From a virus, in the IMG/VR virus record IMGVR_UViG_3300046011_003401, positions 1 to 52,199 of that record: a DNA stretch of 52,199 nt. One strand, 5' to 3'. Below are positions 7,115 to 29,627 of the stretch, piece by piece. The notes under the pieces were generated by a model. The model made no database searches. It worked only from the letters and a program-made list of their open reading frames with translations, and was not told the DNA's origin. The position numbers and the translations under genes are program-made. The first letter of the stretch is position 1, and each line of letters opens with the position of its first letter.

Positions 7115-9043
7115 ATGGATATAAAAGGTAAAGTCATTCGACTGGACTCGCTTTTCCAAAAAAGCGCCCCTTTACCCACAACTGGGGAAACTATAGACTC
7201 TATATTTATTGAAGGGTATGCAAATACTACTACGGTAGATAGAAGTGGTGATGTAATCCCTAAAACTGTTTGGGAAAAGGGACTTCAAAATTACCTTAAA
7301 AACCCTATTATTTTAGCGTATCATGACCATGACGAACCTATCGGCAGAATGTCAGAATACAAGATAGAGGATAAAGGTTTATGGATTAAAGCACGTATTT
7401 CTGCAGCCGCAGAAGATGTATTTAATTTAGTAAAAGATGGTGTTCTTACAGCTTTTTCTGTAGGATTCATAATCAAAGATGCAACTTATGATTCAATTAC
7501 TGACCTCTTTATTATTAAAGAGCTAGAGCTACTAGAAATATCAGTAGTATCAGTGCCTGCAAATCAAGATAGTACATTTAGTTTGTCAAAGTCTTTTGAA
7601 AGTGACGATGACTATAATTTATTTAAAAAACAGTTTTCAACTAATGAACCTGCTAAAGAGCAAAAAACATTAGAAGAACCAACCGTTCAACAAAAAGAGG
7701 AAATTTTTATGGATCCAAAAGATTTAGAAGCCTTATTGGCTAAGACTGCAGCTGCTGCTGCTCAAACTGTAATCGACGCTCAAGCTGCTGAAAAAGCTGC
7801 TGATGCAGAAAAAGCTGCTGAAGCTGCTGCCGTTGAAAAACGCATCGCTGACGCTGTTGCTAAAGCTACTGTAGTTACTTCAGGTACTTCAGGTGCTGAA
7901 CAACTTTTAGCTGATATCACAAAACGTTTAGATGCTCAAGAAGTTACTAATAAATCAGCTATCGCTGGCTTAGAAGAAGTAATCAAAGAAAAATCTAAAG
8001 AATTAGAAGCTATTCAAAAAAGCAAAATGAACTTTGCTGGCGATAAAGAAGGTGCTGCTTATGCTGAGAAAGAATCTGCATATCTACTTTCAAAAATCAC
8101 TGGTAAATCTATCCAAGATACTAAATACGGTGCTGGCATCGTTGAAAAAGCAGGAGCTCACGTTCCTTCAGCTACTTGGGAATTAGAAGTTTCATTGAAC
8201 ATGGAAAATGAAATCCGTCGTCGTTTAGTTGTTGCTCCATTGTTGCGTGGCATCAATATGCAAACTAACGTTATGACAATTCCAGTAAACCCAGAAGCAG
8301 GTGATGCAACTTGGATTACTAATGCTCAATTCGGTACAACCGCATCTCCAGGTTCTGCACAAACTCATCAATTGGGTGCTGTAACATTGAATGCATATAA
8401 AGTTGCAACAATGGAATACTTAGCATACGAAGAGGAAGAAGATTCATTGTTAATCTTGTTACCTACTATCCGTGATGCAATGATCCGTCGCGTAGCTCGT
8501 GCTGTTGATAAAGCATACTTAATCGGTGCCGGTTCTGGTTCTGATCCAGTTAAAGGTTTGTCAATCTATGACGCTACTTCAGTAGTTGTTCCAACAAATA
8601 CTGGCGTTGCTTCAATTGCTAACCTACGTGCATTGCGTAAAGATTTAGGTGCTTGGGGTCTAGAGCCTTCAGAATTAGCGTTTATCGTTTCTACTGAAGT
8701 TTACTACGATTTGTTAGATGATACAGCTTTCCAAACTATGGATAAAGTTGGTCCTGCAGCTACATTGTTAACAGGCCAAGTTGGTATGATTGGTAATACA
8801 CCAGTTCTAGTATCTAGCATGTTCCCAGCTAAAGCAGGTGGTGCAGCTACTGCAACTACTAATATCGGTGCATTATGCGTTGCCCCAGCTAACTTCTTAG
8901 CCGGTAATCAACGTGGTCTACGTTTAGATACACAAGATCTAGTAGAAACACAACGTAAAGTTCTAGTAAGTTCATTGCGTACTGGTGTTACTCAATTGAC
9001 TACTAATCTAGGTCAAGGCGTTTCAACATTACGTTGGAGCTAA
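7115..9043 (+). CDS. Prohead protease fused to HK97-fold major capsid protein
   Basis: This 642-aa polypeptide joins two normally separate genes. Residues about 1-160 are a U35/HK97-type prohead protease: IEGYANTTTVDRSGDVIPK, catalytic histidine candidates H70/H72 (AYHDHDEP), catalytic serine S115 in LTAFSVGFI, and ELLEISVVSVPANQDS. Residues about 200-300 are an Ala/Glu-rich helical delta/scaffold segment. The rest is the HK97 major capsid fold (for example RRLVVAPLLRGINMQTNV and AVDKAYLIGAGSGSDP). The protease should cut scaffold and itself during head maturation. Codon choice shifts after about 7700 to the GCT/CGT-rich pattern of highly expressed genes. Start 7115 has AAGGAG. An in-frame internal start at 7709 could also make free capsid protein. 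Confidence 0.93.
   Translation: MDIKGKVIRLDSLFQKSAPLPTTGETIDSIFIEGYANTTTVDRSGDVIPKTVWEKGLQNYLKNPIILAYHDHDEPIGRMSEYKIEDKGLWIKARISAAAEDVFNLVKDGVLTAFSVGFIIKDATYDSITDLFIIKELELLEISVVSVPANQDSTFSLSKSFESDDDYNLFKKQFSTNEPAKEQKTLEEPTVQQKEEIFMDPKDLEALLAKTAAAAAQTVIDAQAAEKAADAEKAAEAAAVEKRIADAVAKATVVTSGTSGAEQLLADITKRLDAQEVTNKSAIAGLEEVIKEKSKELEAIQKSKMNFAGDKEGAAYAEKESAYLLSKITGKSIQDTKYGAGIVEKAGAHVPSATWELEVSLNMENEIRRRLVVAPLLRGINMQTNVMTIPVNPEAGDATWITNAQFGTTASPGSAQTHQLGAVTLNAYKVATMEYLAYEEEEDSLLILLPTIRDAMIRRVARAVDKAYLIGAGSGSDPVKGLSIYDATSVVVPTNTGVASIANLRALRKDLGAWGLEPSELAFIVSTEVYYDLLDDTAFQTMDKVGPAATLLTGQVGMIGNTPVLVSSMFPAKAGGAATATTNIGALCVAPANFLAGNQRGLRLDTQDLVETQRKVLVSSLRTGVTQLTTNLGQGVSTLRWS
7696..7711 (+). promoter_or_regulatory. 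Internal ribosome site and start for free capsid protein
   Basis: AGAGG (7696-7700) lies 8 nt before an in-frame ATG (7709-7711), codon 199 of the fusion. It begins MDPKDLEALLAKTAA, just as a separate capsid gene would. Initiation here would make a 444-aa delta-domain plus capsid protein without the protease. The site looks like a remnant of two genes that lost the stop between them. Confidence 0.6.
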
Positions 9044-21433: not shown

Positions 21434-21997
21434 ATGTCCGTCGAATTAAAAACAGTAAAGCTATATGGACATTTGGGCAAAAAATTTGGAAAAAGTTTCC
21501 AACTAGCAGTATCCACACCTGCCGAGGCTGTAAGAGCTTTATCTACTAATATTAAAGGTTTTAAACAGTATTTAACTAAACATAGCGCACCAGGTTATCA
21601 TATATTTATTGATAAAAAAGATTTAGCTCAAGATGAACTCAACTATAAAGTATCTTCTGATATTATAAAAATAGTACCTGTTACAGTAGGTAGTGGTGGT
21701 ATTTTTAAAGCAATAGTTGGAATAGTATTAATTGTAGTTGGTATAGTAACTCAACAGCCTTGGATAACCAAAATAGGTATAAGTATGACTCTTTCCGGTA
21801 TTGCAGAAGTGCTATTTGCACCCCCGAAACCTAAGTCATATAATAGTGAAAAACCTGAAAATAGTCCATCGTATATATTTAATGGACCTGTTAATACTAT
21901 TTCTCAAGGGAACCCAGTATCATTATGTTATGGAAAAGTACGAGTTGGTTCTCAAGTTATATCAGCAGGACTTACATCTAGGGAGATACCAATATGA
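21434..21997 (+). CDS. Tail assembly protein, gpI-like copy 1
   Basis: This 187-aa protein matches the lambda gpI family: N-terminal ubiquitin-like domain (LKTVKLYGHLGKKFGKSFQL, then VSTPAEAVRALSTNIKGFKQ), a hydrophobic Gly-rich middle (FKAIVGIVLIVVGIVTQQPW) and a C-terminal NPVSLCYGKVRVGSQVISAG. gpI is needed for tail tip assembly and is absent from mature lambda tails. GAAGGGGG precedes the start. It is followed by a second full-length homologue with ATGA overlap. The two share nearly identical ends and differ in the middle, so this is a tandem duplication. Confidence 0.85.
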   Translation: MSVELKTVKLYGHLGKKFGKSFQLAVSTPAEAVRALSTNIKGFKQYLTKHSAPGYHIFIDKKDLAQDELNYKVSSDIIKIVPVTVGSGGIFKAIVGIVLIVVGIVTQQPWITKIGISMTLSGIAEVLFAPPKPKSYNSEKPENSPSYIFNGPVNTISQGNPVSLCYGKVRVGSQVISAGLTSREIPI

Positions 21998-22545
21998 GTG
22001 AATTAAAAACAATAAAACTATATGGTCATCTAGGTAAAAAATTTGGAAAAAGTTTCCAACTAGCGGTAGCAACACCATCAGAGGCTGTGCGAGCCCTATC
22101 AATAAATTTAAAAGGTTTCAAAGAATATTTAAAACAACATAACTTCCATGTATTTTTAGATAAAATGGATATTGGTAAAGAAGAACTTGGTTCTATTACA
22201 ACTGCAGATATTATAAAAATAATACCAGTAACAGTTGGTTCCGGTGGGTTTTTTAAAGTAGTTATTGGTATTGCTTTAATGATATATGCACCAGAGATGA
22301 GTTCTACATGGTTTTCAGTTGGTGCATCAATGGTTTTAAGTGGCATATCAGAAATATTATTTGCCCCACCAAGAAGAAATAAAGATACTAGTACAGAGAA
22401 GCCAGAAAATACACCTTCTTATGTATTTAATGGACCAATAAATACAACAGGTTCAGGTAATCCAGTTTCCTTATGTTATGGTAAAGTACGTGTAGGTTCA
22501 CAAGTTATTTCAGCAGGGCTTACCTCAAGAGAGATTCCAATATAA
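21994..22545 (+). CDS. Tail assembly protein, gpI-like copy 2
   Basis: This 183-aa paralogue of the preceding gene shares LYGHLGKKFGKSFQLAV at the start and GKVRVGSQVISAGLTSREIP at the end. The middle is different (NFHVFLDKMDIGKEELGSIT, then VVIGIALMIYAPEMSSTWFS). The ubiquitin-like N-terminal domain and hydrophobic core are retained, so it looks functional. It overlaps copy 1 by 4 bp and gpJ by TAATG. Two gpI genes in a row are unusual. They might act on different partners or as a heterodimer, for example one for the Hint-containing gpJ precursor; this is inference only. Confidence 0.85.
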   Translation: MSELKTIKLYGHLGKKFGKSFQLAVATPSEAVRALSINLKGFKEYLKQHNFHVFLDKMDIGKEELGSITTADIIKIIPVTVGSGGFFKVVIGIALMIYAPEMSSTWFSVGASMVLSGISEILFAPPRRNKDTSTEKPENTPSYVFNGPINTTGSGNPVSLCYGKVRVGSQVISAGLTSREIPI

Positions 22546-25500
22546 TGGCACAAAAAGAAATTATAGGTAGTGGTGGATGTTTTCCACAGTATGCTAAAGT
22601 TCTAACAACTTCTGGGTATAAAAATATATCTGAAATAGTTGTAGGTGATGAAGTAATCTCCTATAATGATACAGGTAGACTAGCTACATCAGTAGTAGAA
22701 GAAGTATTTTTCCATAAAAACAATGAGGTATCAAAATATACTTATTGGGGTGGTGAAATATATGCTACTGCTAATCACTGGGTTTTAAACCAACTTAACT
22801 CATTTTCAGAAATAGGTAATTTATCAACCCATGATTGTTTGGTTGATAGTGATGGTACCCTAAGACCAATGATAGTCTCAGAAGAGGCTGGCATTGAAGA
22901 TGTATATAACCTATCAGTAGTACCAGACCATACTTATATAGTAGATGGTATTCGTGTACATAATGGTGGTGGAGGTAAAGGTGGTGGTGCAAGTCGTCCA
23001 GCAGTAGAAGACCCCAATACATTACGCTCAAAACAATTTGCTAGAGTACTAGACCTAGTTTCCGAAGGGGAAATTGGGGGACTAGTCTCGGGTGATCAAT
23101 CCGTATTTATTAATGATGTACCACTACAAAATGCAGATGGAACCTATAACTTCAGAGATAGTTTTATAGATGTTCGTACAGGTACGCAAAATCAAGCAGT
23201 TATTTCAGATTTAAACTCAGTAGAAAATACTATTAATGTATCAACTAGAGTAGAACGCCCTAAATTATTAGAATCTACATATCCACATGCCACAACAGCA
23301 ACTACAAGTTTAACACTAACTTTAGCTAATCATGGATATTTATCAGGTCAAACTTTATATATAGCTTCTAAAACTGGAACTTTACCAGAAAATATATATA
23401 CAATAAATTCTGTTACTCCGGATACCTATACAATTACAGTTCCAAGTGCAACATATGTTGCTGGAATAGTATATGCCAATGCTAGTTTAGTTAATAATAT
23501 TAAAACCGGAACCCATGCAGCCTCTACTTTAGGAAGTACTAAAACTATAACTAAAACTGCACACGGTTTTCAAGAAGGTGAGTCCATTTATCTATGGGCT
23601 AAAGAAGAGCAAGGTGTTACATATACCATAGGTAAAAAAGGTCGTAGATATACGCCAGCAGGAGATTTCTTTCCACTATGCGTTTATACAGTAAAAACTG
23701 TACCAACCGCTAATACATTCACAGTTTTACTAGATGAACCATTAGCATTGAATGCTTCAAGTGTATTTATGCAAAGAGCAACTGGAACAGTCCGTTCAGT
23801 AACTAACCTAGAAGCAGATGAATGTTATATTACTATGGAAGTACCACAACTTACAGAGCAAGATACAACTACTGGAGATTTACACGGTAGTAAAGTATCC
23901 TTTGTAATTAATGTAAAAAATAGCGAACCTTATTCTAAATATGAAAGAGTAGGATTAAGTTATAATACTAAAAATAATGGTACATTGTCTGGTACCGAAG
24001 TTACAATACGTGATTTAGGTACTTACAATAGTACTTCAGGTAGTAGTTCAGTATTATACGCAACACCACCACCAGATGCTAATTCTGGTACAATGTATAT
24101 GTATGGAAATACAAATAGAAGACAATCAGTAGCTATAAAAGGTTATTCAGTATATACCGAAACAGAGGATGCAATAGCAAGTCAACTGGTACTTGGTTGG
24201 AGAACAACTAGTAATAAACAACAAAATATTTCTATAGGAGTATATAAACGTTTAGTTGGTGCCACTAATTGGGAAATACATGCTACAGTAGCATTTACTG
24301 GTAAGAATGAAACCAGAACAACTGCTTCCCAAGGTTTTGGTATTACTAATTCAGTATCTGTGCCAGTTTACACTACTAAAACAGTATTAGTTGAGCATAC
24401 TTTAGCTATTTATGAATATAAGTGCGAAGTTATTGGAGTTGCACAAGGATTATTTGGTTTTACAAATAGATCCTATACCGTTGCTTTCGATACCTTGGGG
24501 GTAATAGAGGGTAAAACATTAGCTAAATATCAACGTGGTTATACAGTACCTTTAAGGGGTGAAGGTCCTTGGCAAGTACAGGTAATCAGAGTAGAAGAAG
24601 AATCAGTAAAAGCAAGTATTTCAAACGAACTATATTGGAGTACATATACTGAAGTAGTAAAAGCTAAGTTAAACTATCCAAATAGTGCTATGATGTATTG
24701 TGCTATAGATGCTGAACAATTTTCAAGTATACCATCAAGATCTTATGAAATATATGGTATCAAATGCAAAATTCCATCAAACTACGACCCACTTAATAGA
24801 ACCTATACAGGTTTTTGGGATGGTACATTTGTAGTAGATTGGACCGATAATCCTGCCTGGGTATTTTATGATTTAATAACAAATACAAGGTATGGTTTAG
24901 GAGATATAGTAACTGGTAGTTTAGTAGATAAATGGACACTATATTCAATTGCTCAATATTGTGATGGTTCCGTACCTACTGGTTTGGGTATTTCTGGTGT
25001 AGTAGTAGGTTCAATATCTGGAACTACTTTAACTATAACTAACCGAAAAAATCTATCCTCTATAGGAGTAGGTTCTATAGTTACTGGTTTTGGTATAGAA
25101 GAATGTACTATTACTGCACTAGGAACAGGTACCGGAGGTATAGGTACATATACTATTAGTAAAGCGCAATCAGTGCCAGTAGGTTCATCTATTAATATTA
25201 TCATTGATGATGTAGAACCTAGATTTACTTGTAATTTATATTTACAAACCCGAGAAGACGCATATAAAGTAGTATCTAATCTAGCCTCTATATTTAGAGG
25301 TATGGTATTTTGGTCTACTGGTTTAGTTACTGCATCTCAAGATTCTCCTAAATCTGTAGATGCTATATATACAGCTGCTAATGTTATAGATGGTACTTTT
25401 ACATATACTGGTACATCGGCTAAAACGCGTCATAACGTAGTATTAGTTTCTTGGAATAATCCTAAAAATGGTTATGCTATTGAAGTAGAGTATGTACAAG

Positions 25501-28500
25501 ATGAGGCTTCTATATTACAAAATGGTATTATACAAACTGAACTATCTGCCATGGGTTGTACCTCTCAAGGACAAGCCCATAGACTTGGTAAGTGGTTACT
25601 ATATACAGAACAATATGAAACTGAAACCGTATCTTTCAAAACAGGTTTAGATGGATTACTTTGTCAACCAGGTGATGTAATCCAAACCCAAGATCCTTTT
25701 AGATCTGGAATTAGACTGGGTGGAAGAGTAGCTGCTGTACAATATAATACTGGTACTAATGTAATAGTAACTGTTGATAATCCTATAAAATTTACAACAG
25801 GTAAAACATATACTGCACTATTTACAAAAGATGACGGTACAGTTATAAGTTTACCATTATCTAACATATCAAATAATCAAAATCAAATAGACCTAATAGT
25901 TAATACAACGCAATCTTTTATTATTCCAGTAGGTTCAGTATGGATAGTATCAGTTAGTGATTTAGCACTACAATCTTGGAGAGTAGTATCAATATCAGAA
26001 CCTTCAAAAGGTGTTATGGGTATTACTGCTTTAAGCTATAATGAAGAGAAATTTAATAATATAGAATATAATCATAGACTACAACCAAAGAAAATAAATA
26101 CACAAACATTAGTTCCAGAACCAGTAGAAAATATTACTATTACAGAACATATGTATTTAATAGCACCGCAAGTACTAAGTAATATATTATCTATTTCATG
26201 GGAAAGCCCAGATACTACTATAGATACTTATCAGGTAACTTATAAAAATATAACTACAAATAGCAATGAAGTAGTAGTATATAGTAATTTACCAAATATA
26301 GAAATATCTTCTATCTCAGAAGCAGAATATACTATATCAGTACAAGCTATAAATTCTTTAGGTACTAAATCACAAAAAACTGAAGTAAATCATGTAGTAG
26401 TAGGTAAAACAGTAAATCCAGCAGATATAACTAATTTTAATTCTAGTCTAGCAAATGATGGGCTAACATTAAGTTGGTCAGCGGTGCCAGATTTAGATAT
26501 TGAATACTATGAGATTCGTTATGGTACATGGGGTTTAGATTCTGCAAATGCTGCTATATATCGTGGTAAAGATACTCAAGTAACTTTATCAACAAAAACT
26601 TATGTATCTGGAAAAACTCATTTATTTTATATAAAAGCTAAAGATACTTCTGGTAATTGGTCTGCTTCATATACATTATCAGGTAGTTTAATAGATAATA
26701 CAACAGCAAAAATACTTCTTACAAAAACTCCAGCACCTGCTATATTACCAATACTAGTAACTAATTCTGTTTCAAGTGTTAGTAATATAATAGCTTTGCC
26801 AAATCCAGCAACTAATGCGCAGCTTTCATTAAATGGTAATATTCTTAAAGTATCTTGGTCTGCACCAGTAGTAAATAGTAATAATATTTCTACATATGGT
26901 TATAGAATTTTTGTTACATCCAACGGTGTAGAATCAGCTGTAGCAGAAGTAACCGGTACATCATATGAATATTTATGGTTAGATAATATACTATCAAAAA
27001 CTTTCAGAATAGAAACTATTGATAATAGTGGGCAATCAAGTTTACCAGACTTATCAATTTCAAAAACATTTACACTACCAAATCAAGTAAATGGAATAAC
27101 CAGTACATTTTCAGCAAATAAATTAACTTTAAAATGGACAGCACCGGTAGTAGATTCTACAGATGCAGCAACTAAACTATATAGAATATATATAGATTCA
27201 GTGGCCATTGCCGAAGTAACTGGTACTACATATGAGTATACTTGGGCAGATAAAAATCTATCTAGAACATTTTCAATAGAAACAGTAGATATAATAAATA
27301 ATGTATCTCCAAGAGCTTCCGTAACTATTCCTGTATTAGTACCAGCAGCTCCAACTGGATTAACAAATACTTTAACAGGCACAACATTAAGATCTACTTG
27401 GAATCATTCAGTATTAGCAAGCAATAGTTTCCCAATAGCTAAATATAATATATATTTTGGTGATGTGGGAAATCCTATTAAAATAGGGGAAACTGTTGCT
27501 AATTCGTATTCTTTGGAATGGACTTATGGTGCAGGGACAAAAGCCATACATATTGAAGCAGTAGATATTAATGGTAATGTATCAAATACTAGAACTACAG
27601 TAACAACTGCTATAGTACCGCCTAATGCACCTAGTAATATATCGGCAACTATGAAAGAAAGTAAATTATTATTTTCATGGAATCCTGCAACTACTGCAAT
27701 CAATTCTTTACCTATCGAATACTATGAATTACGTGAAGGTGGAACAACTTGGGAAAATGCTACATTTGTAGCTAATATTCCTGCTTCTATTAATATACTA
27801 CAGTATTTATATGGTATAACTAATGTAACAGAGTTATCAACTGTACCGGTAGGTACATTAAAGTATAATCAGGCAAAAGTTTTTAGAATAGCATCAAAAG
27901 ATACTTTTGGTCTAGCTTCTACTACTCAAACAACTGTATCAGTAACTTTAACTAAGCCAAGTGCTATAAATAGTTTAAATGTAAATATTGTAGGTCAATT
28001 TATTAATGCAGCCTGGACTTCTATTATTACAGGCACTTTACTAGATGTATTTACTTTACCTATTGATAGATATGAAATTCGTGCAACCCGATCTGCTAAC
28101 GTAGATGAAACTGCATGGAATAATGCCACATCTTTAGCTTCATTAAGCGGTTCAGCAATAGCACTAGACCCTCCAATTAATCCCAGCGTAGATCCTTTAA
28201 ATAATGCCGATGGAACATGGTACTATTTAATAAGAGCATACGATTCGTTTAATACAGCAGGGGCTTTAGCAAATAAACAACTAACTATAACTAAACCAAC
28301 TAAACCACTTAATTTCTTTAATAAAGTTATTGATAATAATATACTATTAAACTGGGAAGATTCAGCGCAACATAGTTTCCCTATAGCTACATTTATGTTA
28401 AAGAAATCTTTTAGTCCATTAGCAACATATACTCAAGCAGAAACTATTGGTACTAAGTCAGGTAATTTTACTACAGTATTTGAAGAAACCTCTGGAAACT

Positions 28501-29627
28501 TCACTTACTTTTTAGTTGCCATAGATACAGCAGGTAATATTAGTGATATGTCTCATACAAATGCTGTTGTAAATCAACCACCAGATTATGTACTAACTGG
28601 TGATATTTACCGAGATAACTTTAATGTAACAACTTATGGTTCTAATACAGTAACTTCTACTAGAACTAATATAGTTAAATCCGATGCTTTAGGTACTACA
28701 GGTATTAATAAGCTTATTGGTCCTATGAGCCCTACTCAAACTTTTGAGACTCATTTTACTGGTAATTCTTGGACAATTATACAAGATCAACCAAATGCCG
28801 GATATCCTATATATGCACAACCATCAACAAATACTGGTACTTTAACAGAAGTTATTGACTATGGCATTATTTTTAATACCAATCAATATGTATCAATAGC
28901 TACTGATATATCTAATATATCTGGTACAACTGGTACATATCAAGTTATATTAAGTACAAGTACTGATGGTATTACATATACCTCTGCAAGTTCAGCAGTA
29001 CAACCAGGAACCAACATTAATACAACTTTCGGTGTATTTGCAAGTAGTTTTAGATATGTTAAAGTTGAGATAATTTTAAACTCTAATACTACTGGTATTG
29101 ACTTACTTCGTATCAATGATTACAGATTAAAATTAAGTATTAAATATACTAATGATGGTGGTAGTGGTCAAGTATCAGATAATGGAATCTATCAAATAAA
29201 TCTATCGGGTAGTGGAAGTGGTTATACCTCAATTCCTACAGTAACAATAGGTGGAAATGGTACTGGTGCTAAAGCTAGAGCAATTATATCTGGTGGAACG
29301 GTTACTGGTATTGAGGTAACTAACTCAGGTTCCGGCTATACCAGCATACTTCCAGCTAATATTACTATTACTGGCGGTGGCGGTGGCGGTGCTGTAGTTG
29401 CTTCAATCGTTAAAACATCCGCAACTTCAGGAACTATAGTTGCATTTAATTATGATTATTTAGATGTCAGTGGAATACAAATAACTTATGGTGGTACAAC
29501 ACCGGGAATAGCTATCTATGATTTTGTAGATACTACATATCCTAAGTTTTTTAGAGTATTATTATTTAATAATTCTGGTACTCCTATAACTGGTAACTTT
29601 TCATGGTCTGCAAAAGGAACAATATAA
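22545..29627 (+). CDS. Tail tip / central fibre protein (gpJ-like) with N-terminal Hint domain
   Basis: This 2360-aa protein is the lambda gpJ homologue, the tail tip hub and host-recognition protein. Residues 1-11 (MAQKEIIGSGG) and 141 on (GGGGKGGGASRPAVEDPNTL) are the Gly-rich N terminus of gpJ, here split by a 129-aa Hint domain (12-140). After it come RSKQFARVLDLVSEGEIGGL and the hub domains, then a run of FN3-like beta domains (about residues 1200-2000, including near-repeats TSYEYLWLDNILSKTF and TTYEYTWADKNLSRTF), and a C-terminal Gly/Ser-rich segment with GSGYTSIPTVTIGG and GSGYTSILPANITI. It is about twice the length of lambda gpJ. Host-binding specificity probably lies at the C terminus. 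Confidence 0.92.
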   Translation: MAQKEIIGSGGCFPQYAKVLTTSGYKNISEIVVGDEVISYNDTGRLATSVVEEVFFHKNNEVSKYTYWGGEIYATANHWVLNQLNSFSEIGNLSTHDCLVDSDGTLRPMIVSEEAGIEDVYNLSVVPDHTYIVDGIRVHNGGGGKGGGASRPAVEDPNTLRSKQFARVLDLVSEGEIGGLVSGDQSVFINDVPLQNADGTYNFRDSFIDVRTGTQNQAVISDLNSVENTINVSTRVERPKLLESTYPHATTATTSLTLTLANHGYLSGQTLYIASKTGTLPENIYTINSVTPDTYTITVPSATYVAGIVYANASLVNNIKTGTHAASTLGSTKTITKTAHGFQEGESIYLWAKEEQGVTYTIGKKGRRYTPAGDFFPLCVYTVKTVPTANTFTVLLDEPLALNASSVFMQRATGTVRSVTNLEADECYITMEVPQLTEQDTTTGDLHGSKVSFVINVKNSEPYSKYERVGLSYNTKNNGTLSGTEVTIRDLGTYNSTSGSSSVLYATPPPDANSGTMYMYGNTNRRQSVAIKGYSVYTETEDAIASQLVLGWRTTSNKQQNISIGVYKRLVGATNWEIHATVAFTGKNETRTTASQGFGITNSVSVPVYTTKTVLVEHTLAIYEYKCEVIGVAQGLFGFTNRSYTVAFDTLGVIEGKTLAKYQRGYTVPLRGEGPWQVQVIRVEEESVKASISNELYWSTYTEVVKAKLNYPNSAMMYCAIDAEQFSSIPSRSYEIYGIKCKIPSNYDPLNRTYTGFWDGTFVVDWTDNPAWVFYDLITNTRYGLGDIVTGSLVDKWTLYSIAQYCDGSVPTGLGISGVVVGSISGTTLTITNRKNLSSIGVGSIVTGFGIEECTITALGTGTGGIGTYTISKAQSVPVGSSINIIIDDVEPRFTCNLYLQTREDAYKVVSNLASIFRGMVFWSTGLVTASQDSPKSVDAIYTAANVIDGTFTYTGTSAKTRHNVVLVSWNNPKNGYAIEVEYVQDEASILQNGIIQTELSAMGCTSQGQAHRLGKWLLYTEQYETETVSFKTGLDGLLCQPGDVIQTQDPFRSGIRLGGRVAAVQYNTGTNVIVTVDNPIKFTTGKTYTALFTKDDGTVISLPLSNISNNQNQIDLIVNTTQSFIIPVGSVWIVSVSDLALQSWRVVSISEPSKGVMGITALSYNEEKFNNIEYNHRLQPKKINTQTLVPEPVENITITEHMYLIAPQVLSNILSISWESPDTTIDTYQVTYKNITTNSNEVVVYSNLPNIEISSISEAEYTISVQAINSLGTKSQKTEVNHVVVGKTVNPADITNFNSSLANDGLTLSWSAVPDLDIEYYEIRYGTWGLDSANAAIYRGKDTQVTLSTKTYVSGKTHLFYIKAKDTSGNWSASYTLSGSLIDNTTAKILLTKTPAPAILPILVTNSVSSVSNIIALPNPATNAQLSLNGNILKVSWSAPVVNSNNISTYGYRIFVTSNGVESAVAEVTGTSYEYLWLDNILSKTFRIETIDNSGQSSLPDLSISKTFTLPNQVNGITSTFSANKLTLKWTAPVVDSTDAATKLYRIYIDSVAIAEVTGTTYEYTWADKNLSRTFSIETVDIINNVSPRASVTIPVLVPAAPTGLTNTLTGTTLRSTWNHSVLASNSFPIAKYNIYFGDVGNPIKIGETVANSYSLEWTYGAGTKAIHIEAVDINGNVSNTRTTVTTAIVPPNAPSNISATMKESKLLFSWNPATTAINSLPIEYYELREGGTTWENATFVANIPASINILQYLYGITNVTELSTVPVGTLKYNQAKVFRIASKDTFGLASTTQTTVSVTLTKPSAINSLNVNIVGQFINAAWTSIITGTLLDVFTLPIDRYEIRATRSANVDETAWNNATSLASLSGSAIALDPPINPSVDPLNNADGTWYYLIRAYDSFNTAGALANKQLTITKPTKPLNFFNKVIDNNILLNWEDSAQHSFPIATFMLKKSFSPLATYTQAETIGTKSGNFTTVFEETSGNFTYFLVAIDTAGNISDMSHTNAVVNQPPDYVLTGDIYRDNFNVTTYGSNTVTSTRTNIVKSDALGTTGINKLIGPMSPTQTFETHFTGNSWTIIQDQPNAGYPIYAQPSTNTGTLTEVIDYGIIFNTNQYVSIATDISNISGTTGTYQVILSTSTDGITYTSASSAVQPGTNINTTFGVFASSFRYVKVEIILNSNTTGIDLLRINDYRLKLSIKYTNDGGSGQVSDNGIYQINLSGSGSGYTSIPTVTIGGNGTGAKARAIISGGTVTGIEVTNSGSGYTSILPANITITGGGGGGAVVASIVKTSATSGTIVAFNYDYLDVSGIQITYGGTTPGIAIYDFVDTTYPKFFRVLLFNNSGTPITGNFSWSAKGTI
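22578..22964 (+). other. Hint / bacterial-intein-like domain inside gpJ
   Basis: Residues 12-140 of gpJ carry all Hint splicing blocks: first residue C12 (CFPQYAKVLT), GDEVISY, block B TxxH (T75, H78 in ATANHWVL), and the C-terminal VVPDHTYIVDGIRVHN ending His-Asn (H139, N140). The next residue is Gly, not Cys, Ser or Thr, so a normal intein splice lacks its second nucleophile. This pattern resembles bacterial-intein-like domains, which cleave or splice by alternative steps. There is no homing endonuclease insert. Removal would restore a continuous Gly-rich N terminus like ordinary gpJ. Confidence 0.85.

Follow-up and report, generated by a model that had tools for sequence, protein, structure and literature searches.

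What does a Hint domain do in the N terminus of the tail-tip protein gpJ of a lambda-like virus, and is it removed from that protein after translation? The question is raised by the window analyzed here, a stretch of 52,199 nucleotides of viral DNA (IMG/VR record IMGVR_UViG_3300046011_003401), in which the gpJ homologue is translated as MAQKEIIGSGG, then CFPQYAKV...GIRVHN, then GGGGKGGGASRP, the chain running on after Asn140 as GGGGKGGGASRPAVEDPNTLRS (Table 1). Outside the Hint segment, the ORF is a genuine gpJ, matched by phrog_31 ('central tail fiber J') with an E value of 2.4e-219. The structure and assembly of gpJ are well studied in lambda. The gene order in the window is lambda-like, with gpL (Phage_tail_L), a JAB and NlpC/P60 protein as in gpK, two gpI homologues and gpJ last, and the same virus encodes a large terminase, a portal, head protease/major head and major tail proteins.

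Table 1. Features of the gpJ locus, with positions in the window and residue numbers in gpJ unless given for the domain
Feature	Position	Strand	Evidence or remark
Two tandem gpI-like genes, directly upstream of gpJ	21434-21997 and 21994-22545	+	both match Lambda_tail_I PF06805
gpJ homologue ORF	22545-29627	+	2360 aa
N-flank leader MAQKEIIGSGG with the gpJ start motif I-x-G-[AS]-G	22545..22577	+	sequence; motif opens most Hint-free gpJs, e.g. MARIYGAGGGGGKGGG, MTTTIIGAGGGGKGGGG
129-aa Hint (mini-intein/BIL-like) domain, Cys1-Asn129, residues 12-140	22578..22964	+	Pfam, PDB, AlphaFold2, structure matches, 158 distinct relatives
Cys1 (Cys12), predicted nucleophile of the N-S acyl shift; context G-C-F	22578..22580	+	conservation in relatives
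Block B T-A-N-H (residues 75-78)	22767..22778	+	T-x-N-H in relatives
Block F His (His129, domain position 118)	22929..22931	+	invariant across 75 distinct domains
C-terminal His-Asn (residues 139-140), Asn for predicted cyclisation and C-terminal cleavage	22959..22964	+	relatives; TIGR01443 intein_Cterm match
C-flank GGGGKGGG; +1 is Gly, start of the gpJ body if cleaved	22965..22988	+	sequence
gpJ body: tail tip/host specificity protein, hub domains, FNIII	22989..29627	+	phrog_31, phrog_1727, Phage-tail_3, FNIII-A_GpJ

The segment between the two flanks is a complete Hint domain. Residues 12-140 scored against Hint models, a check named by an earlier, sequence-only reading of this DNA: Pfam PT-HINT (PF07591) scored 34.3 bits (E 3.4e-8), above its cut-off of 27.7, Pfam Hint (PF01079) reached its own cut-off, and PT-HINT was the best Pfam family, matching all 45 family members scanned. 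The bacterial intein-like (BIL) domain in PDB 2lwy was the top PDB match both with the single sequence (E 2.7e-7) and with the family profile (8.4e-14), and the profile found the gp41-1 intein at 6e-11, among many others. An AlphaFold2 model built with 45 related sequences had pLDDT values of 95-98 over the Hint domain. Foldseek ranked 2lwy first for this model (TM 0.80/0.87; rmsd 1.6 A), and the BIL, intein and Hedgehog structures overall gave VIA-align Z scores of 15-21, among them the Tetrahymena BIL2 domain (21.0), mini-inteins (about 20), 2lwy (19.9) and Hedgehog (1at0; 19.0). The best match among viral structure models was A0A218MKA3, an unannotated protein of an uncultured virus with 39% identity.

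Seven independent IMG/VR contigs of the window clade carry the domain at 95-100% identity, which rules out an assembly artefact. Searching with the part of gpJ that follows the domain retrieved a dozen further contigs bearing a homologous domain in the same place, together with Hint-free gpJ homologues that join directly at the Gly run, in agreement with the insertion in this run that had been proposed earlier. Family scans confirmed at least 495 viral stretches, plus further sets, and yielded 158 distinct full-domain relatives, 157 of them in uncultured phages. The insertion site, in the Gly-rich gpJ N terminus, is identical in all 157 phage members, in a few of which the contig or reading frame stops before enough gpJ body to score. 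None of the 158 relatives contains an endonuclease, and a homing endonuclease in the window domain was dismissed because 129 aa leave no room for one. Among 84,980 bacterial and archaeal genomes, only two loci matched, both in MAGs and one of them (L167) encoding a non-phage protein, and a prophage origin was rejected on these grounds. A tail-gene Hint domain was absent from 50,697 isolate phage records, though 1,527 of these records match the gpJ body. In the open-licence literature searched on Hint, intein or BIL domains and phage tails, no paper describes a gpJ with a Hint domain; one in a subscription journal is possible. The insert has probably not been described before; a BIL-like Hint domain is a known kind, and its gpJ setting is apparently both widespread and unreported.

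Cys1 and the C-terminal His-Asn are present in all 158 distinct relatives, and block B reads T-x-N-H in 157 of them (T-P-N-Q in the exception), a figure partly favoured by search patterns some of which contained block B, with Cys1 and His-Asn outside those patterns; other family scans used patterns spread across the domain, one of which contained Cys1. Gly precedes Cys1 at position -1 in 155 of the 158. At +1, Ala predominates (130), ahead of Gly (24), Thr (2) and Ser (1); n = 157, one contig ending there. The limits 22578-22964 and the 129-aa length put forward by the sequence-only reading were exact, the Cys12 codon lying at 22578 and Asn140 ending at 22964. The Cys1, block B TxxH and terminal His-Asn that it had listed are all present, in addition to the block-F His; the full residue set that it had claimed for N- and C-terminal cleavage is there, and its comparison of the non-nucleophilic Gly at +1 with A-type BILs extends to the Ala or Gly found in 154 of 157. 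Between the window and its relative L005, dN/dS was 0.094 in the domain (25 synonymous and 10 nonsynonymous changes) and 0.237 in the gpJ body; other pairs gave 0.02-0.35 in the domain, and the near-identical pair of the window and L003 had too few changes for the ratio. The Hint domain is under strong purifying selection. Because its residues are conserved in 158 distinct relatives and dN/dS is far below 1, the domain is likely active. A second Cys, at domain position 87 (gpJ Cys98) within D-C-L-V-D, is found in 71 of 75 distinct domains and is replaced by Ala in 4. The rare Ser or Thr at +1 (L122, L096 and L170) would permit ordinary splicing. Among the Hint-bearing gpJs, which are known from uncultured phages, one lineage (L179-L181; L179:1154-) carries Gln in place of the block-B His (TPNQ) and keeps Cys1 and His-Asn. 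This lineage counts against activity at both ends and provides a natural test of the need for the N-terminal step.

Among known systems, the closest counterpart is the A-type BIL domain of Clostridium thermocellum (2lwy), which shares the size, fold, Cys1, block B, C-terminal His-Asn, non-nucleophilic +1 and lack of an endonuclease. The His-Asn without a conserved +1 nucleophile that defines A-type BILs is found here, and 2lwy as the nearest known BIL is an assignment from its being the best PDB match by sequence and by Foldseek. A-type BILs as described lie in variable regions of bacterial, often secreted or toxin-type proteins, whereas here the domain occupies one fixed tail-tip site in many phage lineages; the variable-length Gly-rich N terminus would fit a variable region, but one of a phage tail protein. 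To our knowledge, few natural roles of A-type BIL domains have been described; the present family is one BIL-like subfamily at one defined site of a well-studied protein. The PT-HINT domains of polymorphic toxins share the Pfam family PF07591, but here the gpJ body and no toxin domain follows the Hint domain, and a pretoxin Hint module was therefore rejected. Class 1 mini-inteins (gp41-1, Ssp DnaB) have the same fold, mini-intein size, Cys1, TxxH, block-F His and His-Asn, and the class 1 residue pattern (N-terminal Cys/Ser, block-B TxxH, C-terminal His-Asn) is found in the domain. In contrast, class 1 mini-inteins have Cys, Ser or Thr at +1 and a conserved active-site insertion, whereas here +1 is Gly or Ala, the N terminus is of low complexity and splicing is putative; the Gly in the window departs from the +1 rule of a canonical class 1 intein. 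A class 3 intein (WCT) was excluded by the presence of Cys1 and by a block F, VYNLSVVPDHTYIV, without Cys. The Hedgehog cleavage site is G-C-F, and the Hog domain shares this N-terminal junction as well as the Hint fold with the gpJ domain; the latter, unlike Hog, ends at His-Asn followed by GGGGKGGG with no sterol-recognition region, and a Hog domain was rejected on this point. Inteins, which are also Hint domains, occur in phage proteins (PMC3556154), including terminase, helicase and nucleotide enzymes, but they show only about 30% identity to the gpJ domain and none lies in an isolate-phage tail gene.

Taking the residues and their conservation together, we consider it quite probable that the domain is removed from gpJ, and probable, with somewhat less assurance, that cuts are made at both ends. 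In our preferred reading, held with that same lesser assurance, this is an active, endonuclease-free Hint domain like an A-type BIL that would remove itself from gpJ after translation. The domain would fold within the nascent gpJ N terminus, and the Gly11-Cys12 peptide bond would be converted into a thioester via Cys1, with the block-B His assisting. Cyclisation of Asn129, with the neighbouring His and the block-F His, would then cut after the domain and free a gpJ body with an N-terminal Gly. The leader MAQKEIIGSGG might next be lost by hydrolysis; alternatively, the new Gly amine might attack the thioester and ligate the flanks into an ordinary gpJ start, MAQKEIIGSGGGGGGKGGG. Ligation is doubtful because +1 is Gly, and in the window phage it would be a possible outcome and not the expected one. 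For A-type BILs, as for BILs without a +1 nucleophile in general, the products reported are mostly cleaved ones (PMC7664689). The class of 2lwy cleaves at both ends and partly splices without such a nucleophile (PMC7664689; PMC5874633), some A-type domains splice by another route (PMC5874633), and ligation by a BIL is possible even in the absence of a nucleophilic side chain (Aranko 2013, cited in PMC7664689).

The flanks differ between the window clade and the remaining phages. The gpJ start motif (I/V-x-G-A/S-G-G) is doubled in essentially every phage member outside the window clade whose contig continues, standing just before Cys1 and again 8-20 aa past His-Asn (e.g., MTRIVGAGGGG-Hint-AGLGLGIAGAGGGGGKGGGG); in the window clade alone, it stands before the domain only. 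Outside the window clade, cleavage after Asn would thus suffice for an ordinary gpJ start, whereas in the window clade only ligation would restore one. The earlier expectation that exact removal recreates an ordinary gpJ N terminus consequently holds for the window clade only if the flanks are ligated; in nearly all other members, C-terminal cleavage alone would be enough. These flanks leave some room, short of making it probable, for a C-terminal cut only, in which Asn cyclisation would shed leader and domain as one pro-piece and gpJ would start at +1; the window body would then begin GGGGKGGGASRP. The motif repeated past the domain (I/V-x-G-A-G-G-G, in all continuing phage members outside the window clade) and the non-nucleophilic +1 of 154/157 members accord with such a cut. 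The residues needed solely for the N-terminal step (Cys1, 158/158; -1 Gly, 155/158; block-B His, 157/158) are nevertheless conserved as well as the C-terminal pair, and the window clade has its start motif solely before the domain. True protein splicing, with leader and gpJ body ligated in every molecule as in an intein, is a tentative reading at best. It draws on the window clade, where ligation alone restores the leader followed by GGGGKGGG, an arrangement seen in Hint-free gpJs such as MSAAEWIEGAGGGGKGGGGSQRT, on the Thr at +1 in two lineages and Ser in one, and on the BIL ligation without a nucleophilic side chain mentioned above, but the Gly at +1 and the mainly cleaved products of A-type BILs weigh against it. 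The weights given to these readings overlap with those for removal and ligation and do not sum to one. Since no in-frame ATG, GTG or TTG lies between 22965 and about 23080, the gpJ body would not be made separately from a nearby internal start, and bypass of the domain by internal translation was rejected.

That the domain stays in place, uncleaved, and decorates the tail tip at the gpJ N terminus is improbable. This N terminus is known as a place where domains are added, and Guernseyvirinae gpJ has a tethered N-terminal domain (PMC13243795); the flanking Gly runs could act as tethers. Yet a mere decoration would have no need for an invariant Cys1, block-B His, block-F His and His-Asn.

To understand the history of the domain, its presence was mapped on a tree of 95 gpJ bodies, where it needs 9 changes, or at least 7 when only well-supported branches are counted. 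Forcing the carriers into one clade cost 1260 log units (p-AU 2e-29; quick tree, simple model), and a uniform single origin followed by vertical descent was rejected. L177 and L184 are 79% identical in the domain and 37% in the gpJ body, and L177 shares 70-79% with other domains against about 36% in the gpJ body; a likeness of the L177 and L184 domains so far above that of their gpJ bodies indicates transfer. The repeated changes on the gpJ tree mean that the domain comes and goes at a single site and passes from lineage to lineage, as a cassette that is gained, lost and transferred. The G-rich coding sequences on its two sides have identical stretches in common, as long as 18 bases in some contigs and 8 bases in the window, and recombination between such repeats could plausibly account for gain and loss. 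The Gly-coding-flanked cassette may have moved by recombination between G-rich stretches and not by homing, and it may be tolerated owing to clean excision from a tether-like N terminus. The nearest plasmid relatives of the domain are mostly named polymorphic toxin-type HINT proteins, and these non-phage relatives, together with a protein of a Flavobacterium MAG, suggest a cassette of bacterial BIL-like origin. In the Flavobacterium protein (L167:3375-5435), a closely related Hint domain with 52% identity to that of the window lies near the C terminus, 14 residues before the stop; the protein is overlapped by the next ORF, in what looks like a pretoxin-type arrangement.

The same tree bears on the suggestion of the sequence-only reading that self-processing has been recruited as a timer of tail-tip assembly, with gpJ, for example, inactive until its partners bind. 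The hub region, where gpJ contacts gpL and gpI, includes the gpJ N terminus (PMC10721106), and the domain persists without a homing endonuclease, but nothing found here ties its activity to partners, and closely related gpJs do without it: L024 and L053 lack it, while their sisters, L019/L040 and L116 respectively, carry it. Since carriers and close relatives that lack the domain are interspersed on the gpJ tree, gpJ assembly has no general need of it. The assembly-gating role is weakened by this patchy distribution, and we regard it as quite unlikely. A broader proposal, that gpJ of many uncultured lambda-like phages is routinely a precursor whose endonuclease-free N-terminal domain excises itself, by splicing or cleavage, where +1 is Ala or Gly, its activity being tied to tail-tip assembly, would make this the first Hint-driven virion maturation step in phage, an outcome that we hold to be unlikely although worth bearing in mind. 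The close pairs with and without the domain and the natural +1 variants (Ala, Gly, Ser, Thr) make the choices between cleavage, splicing and retention, and between passenger and maturation device, directly testable. Small mini-Hint domains whose junction is Gly-Cys-Phe could also be drawn from this family.

Further observations concern other parts of the virus. Positions 7115-9043 encode a 642-aa protein whose N-terminal part matches a head maturation protease and whose C-terminal part matches a major head protein, a fused protease-capsid gene. Compared with isolate gpJs, the gpJ of the window has additional sequence at positions 23200-24500 (about residues 220-650), between its N-terminal hub region and FNIII-A; the isolate proteins align to under half of that interval. 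The two tandem gpI-like genes are identical in their C-terminal 29 residues (GNPVSLCYGKVRVGSQVISAGLTSREIPI). In lambda, gpI forms a trimeric plug, and a mixed gpI plug would therefore be possible. The gpI duplication is also seen across the window clade and in the Hint-carrying phages L093, L094, L105, L109, L112 and L115, and two gpI copies occur in 21 of the 187 loci having gpI.
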